DNA of 64,000 bases, from the NCBI RefSeq assembly GCF_027497235.1, contig NZ_CP114902.1:1501501-1565500 (forward strand), written 5' to 3'. Position numbers and translations under genes: made by a program. Under the pieces are notes generated by a model. That model was not told the DNA's origin. It was given only the letters and a program-made list of their open reading frames with translations, and ran no database searches. This DNA is from Micromonospora sp. WMMD1128. GTDB taxonomy: Bacteria; Actinomycetota; Actinomycetes; Mycobacteriales; Micromonosporaceae. Below are positions 809 through 8,821 of this stretch, piece by piece (within the stretch, counting starts at the first letter, position 1; every line of letters begins with the position of its first letter).

Positions 809-3262
809 TCAGCGGGCCAGCAGGCGACGGGGATTCCAGCGCAGCAGCCGCTGCCGTACCTGACCGGTGGTGATGACCAAGCGGGCCGACCGCTCGGCCA
901 GGGCGGTCCGCCACCGGATCAGCACCGACGGCGGCAGCACCGCCGCCAGCAGCCGGGTCCGCCGGCTCGCGCCGGCCGCGAGAGCCCCGCGTACCGTCCG
1001 CAGCGCCGGCTGCAACTCCGCGCCGGTCAGCGGGTCCCGGGCGTAGCGGGCCCGCTCCTCGGCGCGGCCCAGCAGTCGTACCCCGGTGGCCGCGCCCGCG
1101 TCCTCGACCAGCGCCTCCCGGGCCAACCGCTCCGCGGTCGCCCGCGGGGTCTCCGTGCCGTCCACCGGGACGTGGAAGTCGACAAGCGTGTCCAGCAACT
1201 CGTCCCAGACGGCGTGCGCGTCGGCGCGGGCCGCCTCGGCGTCCACCCCGACCACCACCTCGCGGGTCTCGCCCCGCTGCCCGGGCACGGTCACGGCGGT
1301 GGCCGCCGGCACGGTCGCCCGGACCCGGCGCCGGCGGCGAAGCGCCGAGCGGCGCAGGGCCGGTACGGCGAGCAACGCCAGCAGGGCGAGCGCCCCGGCC
1401 AGCCACCACGGCCAGACCGGCGCCCGCCGGGTCGGCCCGCTCTCGCCGAGCGCCAGACCCTGGTCGGCGTCCTTGTCCAGGCGGTCCGGCTCGTTCGGGC
1501 CGGCGGACGGGTCGACCCCACCGGGTGCGGCGCTGCTGCCGGGCGCGGGGGCGTTCTCCTCCGGGGCGTTCGTGTCCGGCGCCCAGGACGACCGGACCGC
1601 ACCCGGGATGCTCGCCGCCGGGGTGGCGTCGAACGGCACCCAGCCGATGCCGCCGAAGTAGACCTCGGTCCAGGCGTGCAGGTTCTGGTTGGTGAGCACG
1701 TAGGTACCGCCGTCGACGTTGCTGCCGTTGGTGAACCCGACCGCCACCCGGGCCGGTACGCCGGCCTCCCGGACCAGCCAGGCCATCGCCGCGGCGTACT
1801 GCTGGCAGTAACCCACCTTGGTGGCGAGGAAGTCGGTGATGTCATCCCCGCTGCTGCCGTTGCGGGTGGACAGCGCGTAGGTGAAGCCGTTCTCCACCGA
1901 GAAGTAGTCGTAGACCGCCCGCACCTTGTCGTAGTCGGTCTGCTTGCCCTTGACCAACTGCTTGACCAGCCGCTCGACGGCCGGCACGGACGGCCTGGCG
2001 GTCTGCAGCGTCATGATCCGGCTGTCCGAGGGGAGGGACGGCGCGGCGCGCAGCGCCGACGGGCTGAACGTCGACCGCACGTAGTCGAAGGAGTAGCGCT
2101 TGCCCCGGGCGTTCTCCCGGTTGGAGAACACGACCTGCTGGTTCGGGTCGTACAGCCAGTAGTTGCTGAGGTCGTCGGTGTCGACCGGCTCGGCGTAGAC
2201 CGGCAACAGCGGCATGTTCAGGTTCTTGGTCACCTCGACGGTGGCCCGGTAGCGCTGCTGCTCGACCCCGCGGGGCGCGCGCTCGCCCGGGTCGGGCAGG
2301 CCACGGGTGACCGCCCGGCCGGTGGGCACCCGCGCCTGGAAGCCGTTCGGCCGCAGGTCGTCCACCACGCCGAGGCGCAGATAGAACGGGTCGGGCTCGT
2401 TGGTGGTGACCTTGACCAGGTCGAACCGCTCGCTCTGGTTGAGCTGACCGCTGAGCGCGGCGAACAGGTCGACCCGGCCCGGGCTGCCGCCCTGACCGGG
2501 CCGGCCGTTGCCGTCGCCGTTGCCGGCGCCGACGGTGCTCATCAGGCCGCCGGTCATCCCCGGTACGGCCAGCGGCACCGCCACCGCCACCGCCACCCCG
2601 ACCACGGCCAGCCGGCGGCCGGCCGCGGCCAACGGCGACGCCTCCCAGACGTCGACGTCACGCCCCTCGCCGGTGAACCGGCGACCGAACCGGCGCACCC
2701 GGTCGACGTTGTCGGTGACCAACAGCCACAGGTAGCCGGCGGCGCCCACCACGAACGGGGTGGCGGGGACGCTGTCCACGTAGACCGCCACCGGCACCGA
2801 GTAGATGGCCAGCATCGGCAGCCCGGCCAGCGCCGGCCGGCGCAGCCCGACCGCGAGCACGTCCACCACCACGGCCACCGCGCCGATGCCGAGCACGGCC
2901 AGGAAGAGCAGCGAGTCGACGTCGGGCACCTCGACGCCGTACGTGCGCATGTCCTCGAGCGAGGACGAGAGCAGGTCACCGAAGTGGACGAACGTGGCCG
3001 GGGTGGGCACGAACGCGAACACCTCGGTGCCACCCGGGAAGACCCACGTCAGGCCCAGGGTCAGGCCACCCAGCATGGCCAGCAGCTGACCCCACAGCGG
3101 GGCCCGGCCCAGCCGGCTCAGCGCCGCCGCGCCGGCCACCACGGAGACCACGATGGCCGCCTGGACCAGCCACGTCCAGCGTTCGAAGATCGCCGACAGC
3201 GGGGCCGCCGACAGCAGGGTCGCCGCCGCGGCGACGAAGCCGATGTTGCGGTGCGGGGTCAC
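809..3262 (-). CDS. TgpA-like membrane transglutaminase
   Basis: An 817-residue membrane protein starting at GTG 3262 behind AGAGG, the last gene of a moxR-DUF58-transglutaminase operon. About six N-terminal membrane segments (DUF3488) precede an extracytoplasmic transglutaminase core with the Cys-His-Asp triad visible: GYCQQYAAAMAW (Cys near 484), LHAWTEVYF (His near 528) and VPFDATP (Asp near 543). A further membrane segment near residue 625 is followed by a cytoplasmic DUF4129-like tail. The family is linked to cell-envelope functions in other bacteria; the substrate is unknown. Confidence 0.88.
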   Translation of the reverse strand: MTPHRNIGFVAAAATLLSAAPLSAIFERWTWLVQAAIVVSVVAGAAALSRLGRAPLWGQLLAMLGGLTLGLTWVFPGGTEVFAFVPTPATFVHFGDLLSSSLEDMRTYGVEVPDVDSLLFLAVLGIGAVAVVVDVLAVGLRRPALAGLPMLAIYSVPVAVYVDSVPATPFVVGAAGYLWLLVTDNVDRVRRFGRRFTGEGRDVDVWEASPLAAAGRRLAVVGVAVAVAVPLAVPGMTGGLMSTVGAGNGDGNGRPGQGGSPGRVDLFAALSGQLNQSERFDLVKVTTNEPDPFYLRLGVVDDLRPNGFQARVPTGRAVTRGLPDPGERAPRGVEQQRYRATVEVTKNLNMPLLPVYAEPVDTDDLSNYWLYDPNQQVVFSNRENARGKRYSFDYVRSTFSPSALRAAPSLPSDSRIMTLQTARPSVPAVERLVKQLVKGKQTDYDKVRAVYDYFSVENGFTYALSTRNGSSGDDITDFLATKVGYCQQYAAAMAWLVREAGVPARVAVGFTNGSNVDGGTYVLTNQNLHAWTEVYFGGIGWVPFDATPAASIPGAVRSSWAPDTNAPEENAPAPGSSAAPGGVDPSAGPNEPDRLDKDADQGLALGESGPTRRAPVWPWWLAGALALLALLAVPALRRSALRRRRRVRATVPAATAVTVPGQRGETREVVVGVDAEAARADAHAVWDELLDTLVDFHVPVDGTETPRATAERLAREALVEDAGAATGVRLLGRAEERARYARDPLTGAELQPALRTVRGALAAGASRRTRLLAAVLPPSVLIRWRTALAERSARLVITTGQVRQRLLRWNPRRLLAR

Positions 3263-3277
3263 CTGACCACCTCTCGG

Positions 3278-4576
3278 TTATCGCATGCCGCCGGCGACCG
3301 TCTCGGCCAGCGCCGCCCGCAGGGCGAAGCCCTGGGAACCGCGGCCGGCCTGCGGCCACAGCGCCGGCAGCCGGTTGCCGTGCTCCACCCCGATCACCCG
3401 CCAGCCGCTCTGCAGCAGGGCGAGCGCGGAGCTGCCGTGTGCCCGCTCCGCCTCGGCCCGTGCCTTCGGCGGCAGGTTCAGCCAGGTGTTGCTGTCGAGC
3501 AGGAACGCCACGCAGGTGGCGCCGTTGCCACGCAGCCCGGCCAGCAGCTCCGCCTCGGCGTCGCCGAGCGTGCCGAGGAGCGCGATGATCAGGCCGCCGT
3601 CGGCCCGCTGCCGAACCTGCTGCACAAGCGTGGTGATCTCGCCCCGCCGGTCGAGGTGCACCTCGGCCAGGTGGTCGAGGAGCAACCCGTCGCCGCCGGC
3701 CTCGGTGGCGCCGACGTCGGTGCCGGCGCCGGTGACCAGGCGCAGCTTGTAGCCGGCCTGACGCAGGTGCACGGCGATGCTGGCGGCGGCGGAGACGGCC
3801 CACTCGAAGCTGGCCGTCGGGCCCTCGCCCCGGTGGCCGGCGGCCCGGGTGTCGAGCACCACGGTCGCCCGGCTCTCCCACGGCTGTTCCTCGCGGCGCA
3901 CCATCAGCTCGCCGGTGCGGGCGGTCGACTTCCAGTGCACCCGGCGCAGGTCGTCGCCCATCCGGTATTCCCGGGTGGCGGCGTCGTCCTCGCCGTGCAC
4001 CGCCACCGAACGCGCGCGGCTGTCGCCGCTGCCGGCGTACTCGCCCGGCAACCGCACCGCGGGCAGCGGGGTGACCTGCGGGATCACGGTGAGGTGGTCG
4101 GTGCTGGGGAAGGACCGGGTCAGCTCGCACAGCCCGAACGGGTCGGTCAGCCGGATCACCAGCGGACCCACGTCGTAGCGGCCCCGCACGTCGGCGCGGA
4201 CCGTGTACGCCACGGAGCTGGCCTGGTGCGCGCCGAGTCGCTCCAGCACCACCCGGGGCCGGCTGCCCAACGCGTAGGGCAGCCGGTCCTCCAGCAGCAG
4301 CGTGCCGGTGGGCAGCCGGGACAGGTTCTGCAGCCGCAGCACCACCCGGGAACTGGCCCCGACCGGCACCCGGTGCGGTTCGAGCGTGCGGTTGCAGGCC
4401 AGCTTGTAGCGGCTGCGCCCGACGTACGCGGCCGCGAGCAGCGGCAGGACGGCGAGCAGGACGGCCACCCGGAGCAGGTCCTTCTCGCCGAGGATGCCGG
4501 CGGAGATCGCGGCGGCGACCGCCGCCGCCAGGAAGGAGCGGCCGCGGGTGGTCAGCCCGCGCAGGCCGTCACGCAC
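3278..4576 (-). CDS. DUF58 domain protein
   Basis: A 432-residue protein with N-terminal membrane segments (about residues 10-55) and a C-terminal DUF58 domain that resembles von Willebrand factor A folds. The family hallmark DDLRRVHWKSTARTGELMVR is present near the middle. GTG start at 4576; its stop lies 15 bases before the transglutaminase start, and the upstream moxR gene ends 1 base before it, so translation is probably coupled. With MoxR and TgpA it forms the common MoxR-DUF58-transglutaminase trio, thought to act as a chaperone-like membrane system. Confidence 0.88.
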   Translation of the reverse strand: MRDGLRGLTTRGRSFLAAAVAAAISAGILGEKDLLRVAVLLAVLPLLAAAYVGRSRYKLACNRTLEPHRVPVGASSRVVLRLQNLSRLPTGTLLLEDRLPYALGSRPRVVLERLGAHQASSVAYTVRADVRGRYDVGPLVIRLTDPFGLCELTRSFPSTDHLTVIPQVTPLPAVRLPGEYAGSGDSRARSVAVHGEDDAATREYRMGDDLRRVHWKSTARTGELMVRREEQPWESRATVVLDTRAAGHRGEGPTASFEWAVSAAASIAVHLRQAGYKLRLVTGAGTDVGATEAGGDGLLLDHLAEVHLDRRGEITTLVQQVRQRADGGLIIALLGTLGDAEAELLAGLRGNGATCVAFLLDSNTWLNLPPKARAEAERAHGSSALALLQSGWRVIGVEHGNRLPALWPQAGRGSQGFALRAALAETVAGGMR

Positions 4577-4577
4577 G

Positions 4578-5630
4578 TCACGGCCTCCGCGGCTCGTACG
4601 GCCCGCGGCCGTTGCCGCTCCCGGGCCGGGTGTCGTACGGGGAACGCTGCCGGTCGTGCGGCAGCGGCAGGCGGTGCACCAGTTCGGCCACGATCGCGTC
4701 GGTGGTACGCCGGGCCAGCTGCGCGTCCGCGGTCGGGATGATGCGGTGCGCCAGCACCGGCACCGCCAGGGTCTGGAGGTCGTCCGGAAGGACGTAGTCG
4801 CGGCCCTCCAGGGCGGCCACCGCGCGGGCCGTGCGCAGCAGTTGCAGGGTGGCCCGCGGGGACGCGCCGAGTCGCAGGTCGGGCGCCTCGCGGGTGGCGG
4901 TCACCAGGTCGATGGCGTACTGCTTGACGGCGTCGGCGACGTGCACCTGACGGACGTGGCCGATCAGCCGGCGCATGGTGGCCGCGTCGGCGACCGGCCG
5001 CAGCGCCGGCAGCGGGTCGGTGGCGCCGTGCCCGTCGAGCATGGCCAGCTCGGCGCTCGGGTCCGGGTAGCCCATCGCGATGCGGGCGGTGAACCGGTCC
5101 CGCTGCGCCTCGGGCAGCGGGTAGGTCCCCTCCATCTCGATCGGGTTCTGCGTCGCGATCACCATGAACGGGGTCTGGAGCTGGTAGGTCACCCCGTCGA
5201 CGGTGACCTGCCGTTCCTCCATGCACTCGAGCAGGGCCGACTGGGTCTTCGGCGAGGCCCGGTTGATCTCGTCGCCGACCACCAGGTTGGCGAAGACCGC
5301 GCCCGGGCGGAACTCGAAGTCGTGGGTCTCCTGGTTGTAGACGCTCACACCGGTGACGTCGCTGGGCAGGAGGTCGGGGGTGAACTGGATGCGGCGGACC
5401 GAGCAGTCGATGGAGCGGGCCATCGCCTTGGCGAGCTTGGTCTTGCCGACGCCGGGAACGTCTTCGATGAGGAGGTGGCCCTCGGCCAGCAGCACCGCCA
5501 GGGCGAGCCGGACGGTGGCCGTCTTGCCCGCGATGACCTGCTCGATGTTGGCCACGACGGCTTCGCTGGCGGCACGGAACTCGTCGTGCGGCAGCAGACC
5601 GCCCACCTCGTCCCAGGTCTGTTGTGTCAC
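4578..5630 (-). CDS. MoxR-family AAA+ ATPase
   Basis: A 350-residue ATPase. Walker A is DVPGVGKTKLAKAMARS, Walker B is LVVGDEINRASPKTQSALLE and the sensor region is MVIATQNPIEMEGTYPLPEAQ, all typical of MoxR. I place the start at GTG 5630 (VTQQTWDEV), because AGGAGGAGG lies just upstream; the frame stays open another 33 codons upstream without family similarity. First gene of the leftward operon with DUF58 and the transglutaminase. MoxR ATPases act as chaperones that assemble or activate VWA-type partners, here probably the DUF58 protein. Confidence 0.9.
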   Translation of the reverse strand: MTQQTWDEVGGLLPHDEFRAASEAVVANIEQVIAGKTATVRLALAVLLAEGHLLIEDVPGVGKTKLAKAMARSIDCSVRRIQFTPDLLPSDVTGVSVYNQETHDFEFRPGAVFANLVVGDEINRASPKTQSALLECMEERQVTVDGVTYQLQTPFMVIATQNPIEMEGTYPLPEAQRDRFTARIAMGYPDPSAELAMLDGHGATDPLPALRPVADAATMRRLIGHVRQVHVADAVKQYAIDLVTATREAPDLRLGASPRATLQLLRTARAVAALEGRDYVLPDDLQTLAVPVLAHRIIPTADAQLARRTTDAIVAELVHRLPLPHDRQRSPYDTRPGSGNGRGPYEPRRP

Positions 5631-5824
5631 GGGCCTCCTCCTCGTCGCCGGAACGGCAGCTCTGTATAGAGCACCTGGACCCGCCGTTGGGTTCGCGACG
5701 CCGAGCCTCGTCTGCCGCACGCATCTCACTGGCCTCTCAGGCTAACCATGTTTCTCGTCAACGCCGACTCCCGCAGGTGGTCGGTCGGTTACACCCGGAA
5801 TATTCGCCGGACGGGGGATCGGGG

Positions 5825-5830
5825 TACACT
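5825..5830 (+). promoter_or_regulatory. -10 box of the leuS leader transcript
   Basis: TACACT fits TANNNT and is followed by 7 bases and then the ATG of the leader peptide ORF. This is the spacing of a leaderless transcript. The -35 region is not well conserved. Confidence 0.5.
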
Positions 5831-5837
5831 GCCGGGC

Positions 5838-5876
5838 ATGGCCGGAGTGTTCCTGCTTCTTACCGAGCCGTGCTGA
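5838..5876 (+). CDS. leucine leader peptide of leuS (12 residues)
   Basis: ATG at 5838 opens MAGVFLLLTEPC and stops at 5874-5876. Three leucine codons in a row (CTG CTT CTT) include two CTT codons, which are rare in this GC-rich genome. The stop codon lies at the top of the left arm of a hairpin (5867-5901), which is followed by an intrinsic terminator and then leuS. This is the layout of a ribosome-mediated attenuator sensing charged leucyl-tRNA. The peptide itself probably has no function beyond being translated. It begins 7 bases downstream of a -10 box and has no ribosome binding site. Confidence 0.65.
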   Translation: MAGVFLLLTEPC

Positions 5877-5901
5877 TGCGCTGAACGCGCGACAGCACGG
5901 C
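5867..5901 (+). promoter_or_regulatory. pause/anti-terminator region hairpin of leuS attenuator
   Basis: An 8-bp perfect outer stem (5867-5874 with 5894-5901) encloses a second stem (5877-5881 with 5887-5891). The left arm overlaps the last codons of the leader peptide, so a ribosome stalled at the Leu codons (5853-5861) would cover part of it and free the right arm. I infer that the freed right arm interferes with the terminator; 5895-5898 can pair with 5912-5915 in the terminator loop, but the exact alternative fold is not settled. Confidence 0.5.
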
Positions 5902-5902
5902 C

Positions 5903-5928
5903 GCCCCTCCTGTGCGAGGGGCTTTTTT
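5903..5928 (+). terminator. intrinsic terminator of leuS attenuator
   Basis: Perfect 7-bp GC-rich stem (5903-5909 with 5916-5922), 6-base loop and six T at 5923-5928. A T-tailed terminator 52 bases in front of the leuS start, after a Leu-rich leader ORF, only makes sense as conditional termination. Confidence 0.75.
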
Positions 5929-5980
5929 GTGCCCGCAGCAGACCTCCCACCACCCGAGACGAACGCGCCGAGGAGACGCC

Positions 5981-8821
5981 ATGAGTGAGGCAGCCGCACC
6001 GGCCACCGACATCCCCCCGTTCCGGTACACCGCCGCCCTGGCCGACGAGATCGAGCACCGCTGGCAGGAGACCTGGGCGCGGGAGGGCACCTTCCACGCG
6101 CCGAACCCGACCGGCCCGCTGGCCGATCCGGACCACCCCCGCGCGGGCGCCGAGAAGCTGTACGTGCTGGACATGTTCCCCTACCCGTCGGGCGCCGGCC
6201 TGCACGTCGGCCACCCGCTGGGCTACATCGGCACCGACTGCTACGCCCGCTACCAGCGGATGTCCGGGCGCAACGTGCTGCACGCGATGGGCTTCGACGC
6301 GTTCGGCCTGCCCGCCGAGCAGTACGCGGTGCAGACCGGCACCCACCCCCGCGCCACCACCGTGCAGAACATCGAGCGGTACCGGGCGCAGCTGCGCCGG
6401 CTGGGGCTGGGCCACGACGAGCGGCGGTCGGTGGCGACCATCGACACCGACTTCTACCGCTGGACCCAGTGGATCTTCCTGCAGGTCTTCAACTCCTGGT
6501 ACGACACGGACGCGAAGAAGGCCCGGCCGGTCGCCGAGCTGATCGCCGAGTTCGAGGGCGGGAACCGGCCCACCCCGGACGGCCGCCCGTGGGCCGAGCT
6601 GACCGTGGCCGAGCGCCGCCGCGTCGTCGACGACCACCGGCTGGCGTACGTCTCGGAGGCGCCGGTGAACTGGTGCCCGGGCCTGGGCACCGTGCTGGCC
6701 AACGAGGAGGTCACCGCCGACGGCCGCTCCGAGCGCGGCAACTTCCCGGTCTTCAAGCGCAACCTGAAGCAGTGGATGATGCGGATCACCGCGTACGGCG
6801 ACCGGCTGCTGGACGACCTGGACACGCTGGACTGGCCGGAGCCGATCAAGTTGCAGCAGCGCAACTGGATCGGCCGGTCCACCGGCGCGCACATCGACTT
6901 CCCGACCGACGCCGCCCCGGTCCGGGTGTTCACCACCCGCCCGGACACGATCTTCGGCGCCACCTACATGGTGCTGGCGCCCGAGCACGAGCTGGTCGAC
7001 GTGCTGGCGCCGGCCGCCTGGCCGGAGGGGACGAAGGACGCCTGGACCGGTGGGCACGGCAGCCCGCGCGAGGCCGTCGAGGCGTACCGCAAGGCCGCCG
7101 CGGCCAAGACGGACGTCGAGCGGCAGGCGGACAGCAAGGAGAAGACGGGCGTCTTCGTCGGCGCGTACGCGACGAACCCGGTGACCGGCGGGCGAATCCC
7201 GATCTTCATCGCCGACTACGTGCTGGCCGGCTACGGCACCGGCGCGATCATGGCGGTGCCCGCCCAGGACGAGCGGGACTGGGCCTTCGCCGAGGTCTTC
7301 GACCTGCCGATCGTGCGCACCGTGGCCCCGCCGGAGGGCTTCGACGGCAAGGCGTTCACCGGCGACGGCCCGGCGGTCAACAGCGCGGCGCCGGAGCGGG
7401 GCATCGACCTGGACGGCCTGGGGGTGGCCGACGCCAAGGCGCGGATCATCGAGTGGCTGGAGGCGAACGGGCACGGCGCGGGCGCGGTCACCTGGCGACT
7501 GCGCGACTGGCTGTTCTCCCGGCAGCGCTACTGGGGCGAGCCGTTCCCGATCGTCTACGACGAGACCGGGGCGCCGATCGCGCTGCCGGAGTCGATGCTG
7601 CCGGTCGAACTGCCCGAGGTGGACGACTTCTCGCCGAAGACGTTCGACCCGGAGGACGCCGCCAGCAACCCGGAGACCCCGCTGTCGCGGCGACGCGACT
7701 GGGTGGAGGTGGAGTTGGACCTGGGTGACGGGCCGAAGCGCTACACCCGGGAGACGAACGTGATGCCGCAGTGGGCCGGCTCCTGCTGGTACGAGCTGCG
7801 TTACCTGGACCCGACCGACTCGCGGCGGTTTGCCGACCCGGCGAACGAGGCGTACTGGATGGGCCCGCAGCGACCCGGCGACTGCGGCGGCACCGACCTG
7901 TACGTCGGCGGCCAGGAGCATGCCGTGCTGCACCTGCTGTACGCCCGCTTCTGGCACAAGGTGCTGTTCGACCTGGGGCACGTCTCGTCGTTCGAGCCGT
8001 TCCGCAAGCTGTTCAACCAGGGCATGATCCAGGCGTACGCGTTCGTCGACCCGCGCGGCGCCTACGTGCCCGCCGAGGAGGTCGTCGAGGTCGACGGCCG
8101 GTGGTTCCACGGCGAGAACGAGGTCCGGCGCGAGTACGGCAAAATGGGCAAGTCGCTGAAGAACGTGGTCACCCCGGACGACATGTGCGCGGCGTACGGC
8201 GCCGACACGTTCCGGGTGTACGAGATGTCGATGGGTCCGCTGGAGGTGTCCCGCCCGTGGGAGACCCGGGCGGTGGTCGGCTCCTACCGTTTCCTGCAGC
8301 GGGTCTGGCGCACCGTCGTCGACGAGCAGACCGGCGGGCCTCGCGTCACCGACGCCCCCGCCGACGAGGCGACCCGGCGGCTGCTGCACAAGGTCGTCGA
8401 CGGGGTCCGCGCCGACATGGACGGGATCCGATTCAACACCGCCATCGCCAAACTGATCGAGCTGACCAACGGCCTGACCCGGCTGGCCGAGACGCCGCGT
8501 GAGGTGGCCGAGCCGCTGGTGCTGATGGTCGCCCCGTTCGCCCCGCACGTCGCCGAGGAACTGTGGCGCCGGCTGGGCCACGACACCTCACTGGCGTACG
8601 CGGACTTCCCGGTGGCCGATCCGGCGCTGCTGGTGGCCGAGTCGGTGACCTACCCGGTGCAGGTCAACGGCAAGGTGCGCGGCCGGGTGGAGGTGCCGGC
8701 CGACGCGCCCGAGGACGCGGTCCGCGCGGCGGCGCTGGAGGCGGTGGCCGGCGCGCTGGCCGGCAAGGAGCCGCGCAAGGTGATCGTGGTGAAGGGACGG
8801 ATGGTCTCGGTCGTCGCCTGA
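5981..8821 (+). CDS. leuS: leucyl-tRNA synthetase
   Basis: A class I synthetase of 946 residues charging tRNA-Leu. The HIGH-type motif is HVGH at 75-78 (after [10 protein letters not shown]) and the KMSKS-type motif is KMGKS at 721-725. Between them lies a CP1 editing domain, then the catalytic core resumes with [14 protein letters not shown], and the C-terminal anticodon-binding and VNGKVRG segments close the protein. I choose ATG 5981 ([10 protein letters not shown]) because AGGAGA at 5971-5976 is well placed; the frame is open 23 codons further upstream, but that part overlaps the terminator. Expression is probably controlled by the leucine attenuator upstream. Confidence 0.97.

Follow-up and report, generated by a model that had tools for sequence, protein, structure and literature searches.

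Does the short region in front of leuS in Micromonospora sp. WMMD1128 couple expression of the gene to the supply of leucine, and if so, by what kind of device? The window analysed here is a stretch of 64,000 nucleotides (contig NZ_CP114902.1, positions 1,501,501 to 1,565,500 of the forward strand), and all positions below count from its first letter. The original prediction had proposed for this locus a -10 box, an open reading frame (ORF) with Leu codons, a hairpin lying over the end of that ORF, a stem followed by six T and then leuS, and every one of these was recovered at its place. Judged from the comparison of sequences, the leader is in all likelihood a ribosome-mediated transcription attenuator, and very probably it would let the cell raise the leuS enzyme when leucine is short. 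The attenuator reading was supported by the conservation of the leader, by the covariation of both hairpins, by a sensing codon at a nearly fixed place and by the lack of a T-box match.

Anatomy of the leuS leader

The elements of the locus, all on the + strand, are arranged as follows.

5825-5830, +: -10 box TACACT, 7 nt 5' of the leader ATG (5838-5840)
5838-5876, +: leader ORF MAGVFLLLTEPC, 12 codons, stop codon TGA at 5874-5876
5853-5861, +: putative regulatory Leu codons CTG CTT CTT, the last CTT (5859-5861) starting 8 nt 5' of hairpin 1
5867-5901, +: hairpin 1 (1:2 or pause hairpin), 9 pairs, with an inner stem within the loop
5895-5900 with 5910-5915, +: candidate antiterminator, GCACGG pairing with CUGUGC (arm 2 of hairpin 1 with the terminator loop), weak
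5903-5922, then T6 at 5923-5928, +: intrinsic terminator GCCCCTC-CTGTGC-GAGGGGC, 7-bp stem, loop CTGTGC
5981-8821, +: leuS, leucine--tRNA ligase, 946 aa (TIGR00396, 864.7 bits against a cut-off of 548.4)

The leader codons read ATG GCC GGA GTG TTC CTG CTT CTT ACC GAG CCG TGC TGA. Hairpin 1 is formed by the arms 5867-5875 (GCCGTGCTG) and 5893-5901 (CAGCACGGC), of which the left one overlaps the end of the leader ORF and runs into its stop codon, and 52 nt separate the end of the terminator from the leuS start at 5981. When the segment 5840-5932 was folded, an energy of -46.5 kcal/mol was obtained as compared with -33.6 +/- 3.1 kcal/mol for the shuffles (z -4.2), and 0 of 200 shuffles was as good. 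The terminator scan returned two overlapping matches, which represent the same stem, where shuffles gave 0.3 on average. No promoter was found by a sigma-70 consensus scan, a kind of scan that generally says little for actinobacteria.

Conservation and choice of the sensing codon

Relatives were collected by scanning GTDB genomes with the LeuS protein of the window, and the best 80 of 294 relatives were taken; these family loci were thus picked by the LeuS protein alone and not by the leader. They came from Micromonospora, Salinispora, Plantactinospora, Dactylosporangium, Actinoplanes and their kin, all 80 of which we take to be Micromonosporaceae on the strength of record titles and general taxonomy. 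A Leu-containing leader ORF was present in 80/80 family leuS loci, and both hairpins were parsed in 81/81 when the window was included. No relative lacked the Leu codons or the terminator, a lack that had been named beforehand as evidence against an attenuator; all 80 carried both. The third Leu codon was CTT in 81/81, window included, and the second was CTT in 67, CTC in 13 and CTG in 1. A chance origin of the leader was excluded because it was conserved in all Micromonosporaceae leuS loci fetched.

A covariance model (R1) was then made with 28 elements, all of them from Micromonosporaceae, and used for a search of the class Actinomycetes. It found one place in the genome of the window itself, and 142 places, all of which were fetched, in 140 of the 393 sampled genomes and 46 of the 122 genera; being found by the model, this class-wide set is selected for having the element. 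The gene downstream was leuS at 136 of the 142 places (135 by tblastn and one, L087, by eye), and the leuS-linked places spanned 20 family labels in the 393-genome sample by manual count. The remaining six comprised four places with cimA downstream (L217, L218, L220 and L221), one with ilvB (L222) and one adjoining the end of a tRNA (L219), which is probably a chance match; gene calls at these non-leuS places rested on NCBIfam for three representative translations and on reading for the others. In the same-order family f2, no genome was among the R1 matches of the class search.

The original prediction had also suggested a check of relatives for covarying stems, and both hairpin 1 and the terminator were found to covary. 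The structure alignment held 100 hand-chosen sequences (the window, 10 family-scan loci and 89 class-search loci); it was fitted to the tested structure, which favours that structure, and it included the four cimA-type matches and L219. In this alignment 98.8% of the aligned cells were paired and 10 of 14 pairs had changes on both sides, 6 of the 8 modelled pairs in hairpin 1 and 4 of the 6 in the terminator class-wide. Double-change cells numbered 84 as compared with 9.2 in shuffles, and structures slid along the alignment gave at most 7. Arms swapped between relatives weakened hairpin 1 in 144/156 cases and the terminator in 76/85. A 1:2 hairpin that overlaps the leader ORF and covaries, as a classical attenuator requires, was therefore present.

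For the codon counts, 207 of 215 loci were parsed and collapsed to 190 distinct elements, with L087 and L217-L222 (no leuS match by tblastn) standing outside the counts. The parser demanded TANNNT 4-10 nt 5' of the start with a slight score preference for 6, and under this rule the gap from the -10 box to the start was 6 nt in 126 and 7 nt in 64 of the 190 elements. It had been claimed that the window carries a leaderless 12-residue ORF; the ORF stands, all 80 relatives likewise having a Leu-containing leader ORF, and a leaderless start at the leader AUG is suggested by the -10-to-ATG spacing.

Codon positions are given as the distance in nt from the first base of the codon to hairpin 1. At -8, the codon was CTT in 184 and CTC in 6 of the 190 distinct elements. 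At -11 the codons were CTT in 73, CTC in 64, CTG in 51 and others in 2, and at -14 they were CTG in 102 and CTT in 42, with others in the rest. Before duplicates were collapsed, CTT stood at -8 in 81/81 family and 120/126 class loci, and in the eight unparsed loci (L154, L183, L185, L188, L189, L199, L207 and L214), inspected by eye, six had CTT at this place, while L189 had CTC and L188 had CTG. By comparison, 14 elements had their stop codon at -2 relative to hairpin 1, 165 had it at +7 and 11 had it between +10 and +25. Because the sensing codon kept a nearly fixed distance to hairpin 1 while the stop moved, stalling at a codon would appear to be the conserved feature.

Three consecutive Leu codons, two of them rare CTT, had been proposed for the window, and both points were borne out: the run reads CTG CTT CTT, and CTT made up 4 of 5570 Leu codons in the 81 family leuS genes, counted to the stop codon. 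In leuS of the window it was 0 of 66, and among 3624 Leu codons in the class-wide leuS pieces CTT occurred 18 times against 386 for CTC. The genome of the window holds one tRNA-Leu gene each for the anticodons CAG, GAG, TAG, CAA and TAA. This survey started from 53 genome matches, of which the 12 longest and 30 further loci were scanned and eight short matches left out; the 30 further loci gave no other Leu gene, and tRNA-Ile(GAT) was present. From this gene set, CTT and CTC would both be expected to be read by tRNA-Leu(GAG). An account of CTT by isoacceptor only is weakened, because CTC, with the same expected tRNA, stands at -8 in 6 elements against 184 for CTT and yet is far commoner than CTT in the leuS pieces.

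Sister leaders and known systems

Leaders of a related build were seen before other genes. Outside the window, cimA of the same genome is preceded by the leader MTSSVLIISS, a hairpin and a terminator (G000:C1:4961286-4961379 (-), loci L265/L303). Among the 30 family cimA loci fetched, 26 showed two or more Ile codons in a row in the leader, and the final one was ATT in 23 of the 26; the other four were L293 with one Ile codon, L281 and L296 with no convincing leader, and L275 with no cimA start motif. An Ile-element model (R2), built from 13 elements, matched 234 of 393 genomes and 87 of 122 genera in a class search. The R2 loci fetched were 70 of its matches, 30 returned by the search and 40 hand-chosen from its places, and cimA was next on the same strand in 67 of them. 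The hairpins of the Ile element covaried as well, with 94 double-change cells as compared with 20.7 in shuffles and at most 23 in slid structures.

The leaders of 55 of the 70 R2 loci were parsed, while 15 failed the -10 filter; by eye, 14 of these had Ile codons before the hairpin and the remaining one, L366, had Val-Val codons before ilvB. The Ile leaders showed the same tilt as the Leu leaders, ATT accounting for 69 of the 134 Ile codons in the 55 leaders that were parsed and for 14 of 739 in cimA coding pieces. L353 and L361 (family label f20) carried the Ile leaders MFALVIIM and MFTPRIII (the latter by eye) with hairpin and terminator, and the frame that follows these leaders is short, ACT-domain-like by eye and not cimA. 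Two further leaders of the same genome lie outside the window. Before ilvB (L269), a leaderless-looking ORF MSSNRSLRVLT has GTA CTT just before a hairpin and terminator, and before leuA (L266), the leader ORF MWRAYLLLGCRDGA has CTT CTC CTT, as in the published LEU element. The codons follow the gene, with Leu before leuS, Ile before cimA, Val/Leu before ilvB of this genome and Val-Val before ilvB at L366.

As judged by titles and abstract openings, no report of an Ile leader before cimA, nor of a leuS attenuator in Micromonospora, was found among the open-access papers searched, and no cimA leader is listed in the available portion of Table 4 of the S. lividans reannotation (PMC8079986). The original prediction had held leader control of the synthetase itself to be less usual than control of biosynthesis. 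Such control is less unusual than that: for Streptomyces avermitilis and S. coelicolor, attenuators of leuS had already been predicted (Seliverstov et al. 2005, PMC1262725), and the LeuL2 of Streptomyces lividans TK24 is a leaderless 12-residue ORF MRAVRLLLSEPR before leuS, followed by a hairpin and U stretch (PMC8079986). With the predicted Streptomyces attenuators the window leader shares the gene, the Leu-codon leader ORF, the terminator and a proposed antiterminator; in contrast, the available part of that study covers two Streptomyces species only for leuS and leaves leaderless start, rare codon and fixed spacing unstated (PMC1262725). With LeuL2 it shares a leaderless-looking 12-residue ORF before leuS, the hairpin and the U run (PMC8079986). 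The identical MRAVRLLLSEPR peptide was met in 27 of the 207 parsed loci, and the Micromonosporaceae-only R1 recovered elements with this peptide at E about 1e-12, which points to homology with Streptomyces-type elements. LeuL2 belongs to another genus, and the MRAVRLLLSEPR loci, unlike the window, use CTT-CTG-CTT (one CTC-CTG-CTT) instead of CTG-CTT-CTT and have a longer hairpin-1 loop.

Rare Leu codons also serve as the sensor in the attenuator of the Salmonella leu operon. There, CUG in place of CUA is reported to lower the sensitivity, and the reason proposed is that tRNAs are charged selectively, not that the codon is rare (PMC1183508, which cites Carter et al. 1986). The LEU element of actinobacterial leuA likewise has a leader ORF with a Leu run, but differs in having no terminator, a model of pseudoknot and pairing with the Shine-Dalgarno sequence, and another gene (PMC1262725). 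Identity of the window leader with a LEU element was ruled out by the gene, which is leuS, and by the terminator that is present.

Mechanism and its alternatives

The sequences show the anatomy and how it is conserved, covariation in both hairpins, and a sensing codon of near-fixed position and identity; on this footing, attenuation may be pictured in the following way. Transcription would start at or beside the leader AUG, and a ribosome would load on the leaderless 12-codon ORF. With plentiful charged tRNA-Leu the ribosome would finish and leave, hairpin 1 would form, and the terminator would end the RNA near 5928. If charged tRNA-Leu were scarce, the ribosome would stall with the last CTT (5859-5861) in its A site. 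Going by the general size of ribosome footprints, the leading edge of a ribosome with the codon at -8 in its A site would lie over roughly five bases at the start of hairpin 1 (here 5867-5871), such that hairpin 1 would not be properly formed. Arm 2 might then be free to compete with the terminator, and polymerase would continue into leuS.

Classical attenuation depends on an RNA structure in competition with the terminator. The Salmonella leu attenuator, which unlike the window leader controls biosynthesis, has several control codons and an established antiterminator. The candidate pairing in the window comprises six pairs with -6.9 kcal/mol and appeared in the best fold of hairpin-1-free RNA ending at 5916 or 5918. 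Of the 159 loci whose terminator loop is 6 nt long, 153 could form five or six of the six pairs, and runs of at least six pairs occurred in 35 of 100 distinct pieces as compared with about 12 with shuffled bases.

Several results, however, weigh against the attenuator reading, and most of them concern this pairing. In hairpin-1-free RNA ending at 5922, where the right terminator arm is complete, the terminator beat the antiterminator. Runs of at least six pairs were about 42 when partners were swapped between relatives, against 35/100 for the pieces' own partners; aligned pairs averaged 4.92 for own and 4.82 for swapped partners (p 0.13); and over dinucleotide shuffles no excess of stability was obtained (mean z 0.08). 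Covariation by swaps was not seen either, the own loop being better in 41/102 and the own arm in 56/102, in a test that has low power here since the arms hardly vary and that gave a clear signal for both hairpin 1 and the terminator. Being weak in the folding, shuffle, swap and aligned-pair tests, the antiterminator is therefore not claimed; a mutually exclusive pairing of arm 2 with the terminator loop is possible and unproven. To these points are added that 253 of the 393 sampled Actinomycetes genomes gave no R1 match, that L219 is an R1 match adjoining no such gene, and that L188, a leuS leader at a contig end dropped by the parser, has CTG at -8 by eye. Of the 26 family cimA leaders, 24 had the last Ile codon 11 nt before the hairpin motif GCGCG and two had it 8 nt before, and the 8-nt spacing is therefore the rule for leuS and not for all such leaders. 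By analogy, a warning comes from ilvB of S. coelicolor, where mutations of leader codons had no effect on regulation, as reported in PMC1262725.

The weakness of a classical antiterminator would suit a reading in which the same leader and stalling act mainly on leuS translation, the Leu run pairing with the leuS ribosome-binding site GAGGAG (5970-5975) unless the ribosome covers it. CTTCTT can pair with GAGGAG, two G-U pairs among them, and a comparable base stem was proposed for the leuA LEU element (PMC1262725). This we consider very improbable: the match is unspecific because a pyrimidine-rich Leu run will pair with Shine-Dalgarno sequences of any kind, and the covarying terminator directly upstream would be left idle. 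An antiterminator that is not firm would also agree with a constitutive terminator that keeps basal leuS expression low, in which case the Leu ORF would do no more than aid early translation, with no control by leucine. Such an arrangement is about as improbable, as it leaves unexplained both the CTT or CTC at one position in 190/190 distinct elements and the way in which the codons agree with the gene for leuS, cimA and ilvB.

The peptide instead of the Leu codons might stall the ribosome, and its end, LLL-x-[EG]-P-[CR], does recur in many relatives. Against such an arrest peptide, the N-terminal leader residues vary freely, and in 14 of 190 elements a TAG stop stands at -2, just after LLLT or similar, while the hairpin 1 nucleotides AGCCG are kept. 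Since these early-TAG variants keep the hairpin letters, the conservation of the peptide end is conservation of RNA; the arrest peptide was rejected, the variants retaining the RNA and losing the peptide end, and its probability is close to nil. We regard as just as negligible a T-box or another leader binding tRNA or a metabolite. T-boxes are generally known to be common for synthetase genes elsewhere, but the present leader is short and built around an ORF. Rfam at E <= 1 over 4500-7500 gave no T-box match and only one unrelated sub-threshold match, on the opposite strand, and Rfam at E <= 0.1 gave none in seven loci (cimA type L303, L306, L339 and L359; leuS type L091, L144 and L177).

This sub-threshold match, to the L31-Actinobacteria leader (5059-5103 (-), 21.6 bits against 35), lies inside a divergent ATPase gene and is probably due to chance. 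Divergent from leuS, three ORFs occupy 809-5729 (-); we take them to be a transglutaminase-like protein, a DUF58 protein and a MoxR-type AAA ATPase, with the scan covering 4578-5729 only.

Returning to the attenuator, its kind before leuS is already known, and the additions are its breadth, the near-invariant rare codon at a fixed place, the doubt over the antiterminator and the Ile device of cimA. It is possible, though we would stop short of calling it probable, that the leuS leader is one of a group of codon-exchangeable actinobacterial attenuators that share one build: a mini-ORF with a leaderless start, a GC-rich hairpin that begins two to three codons past the sensing codon, and a terminator next to it. 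In these leaders the U-ending rare codon (CTT, ATT) is favoured over the C-ending one with the same expected tRNA, so that wobble decoding speed, and not only isoacceptor charging, may set the sensitivity; termination, too, may be controlled by hairpin 1 with no conserved antiterminator involved. The Ile leader before cimA would extend attenuation to citramalate-based isoleucine synthesis. As far as sequence evidence goes, the leuS attenuator is not a peculiarity of Streptomyces but reaches across 20 family labels of the class sample.

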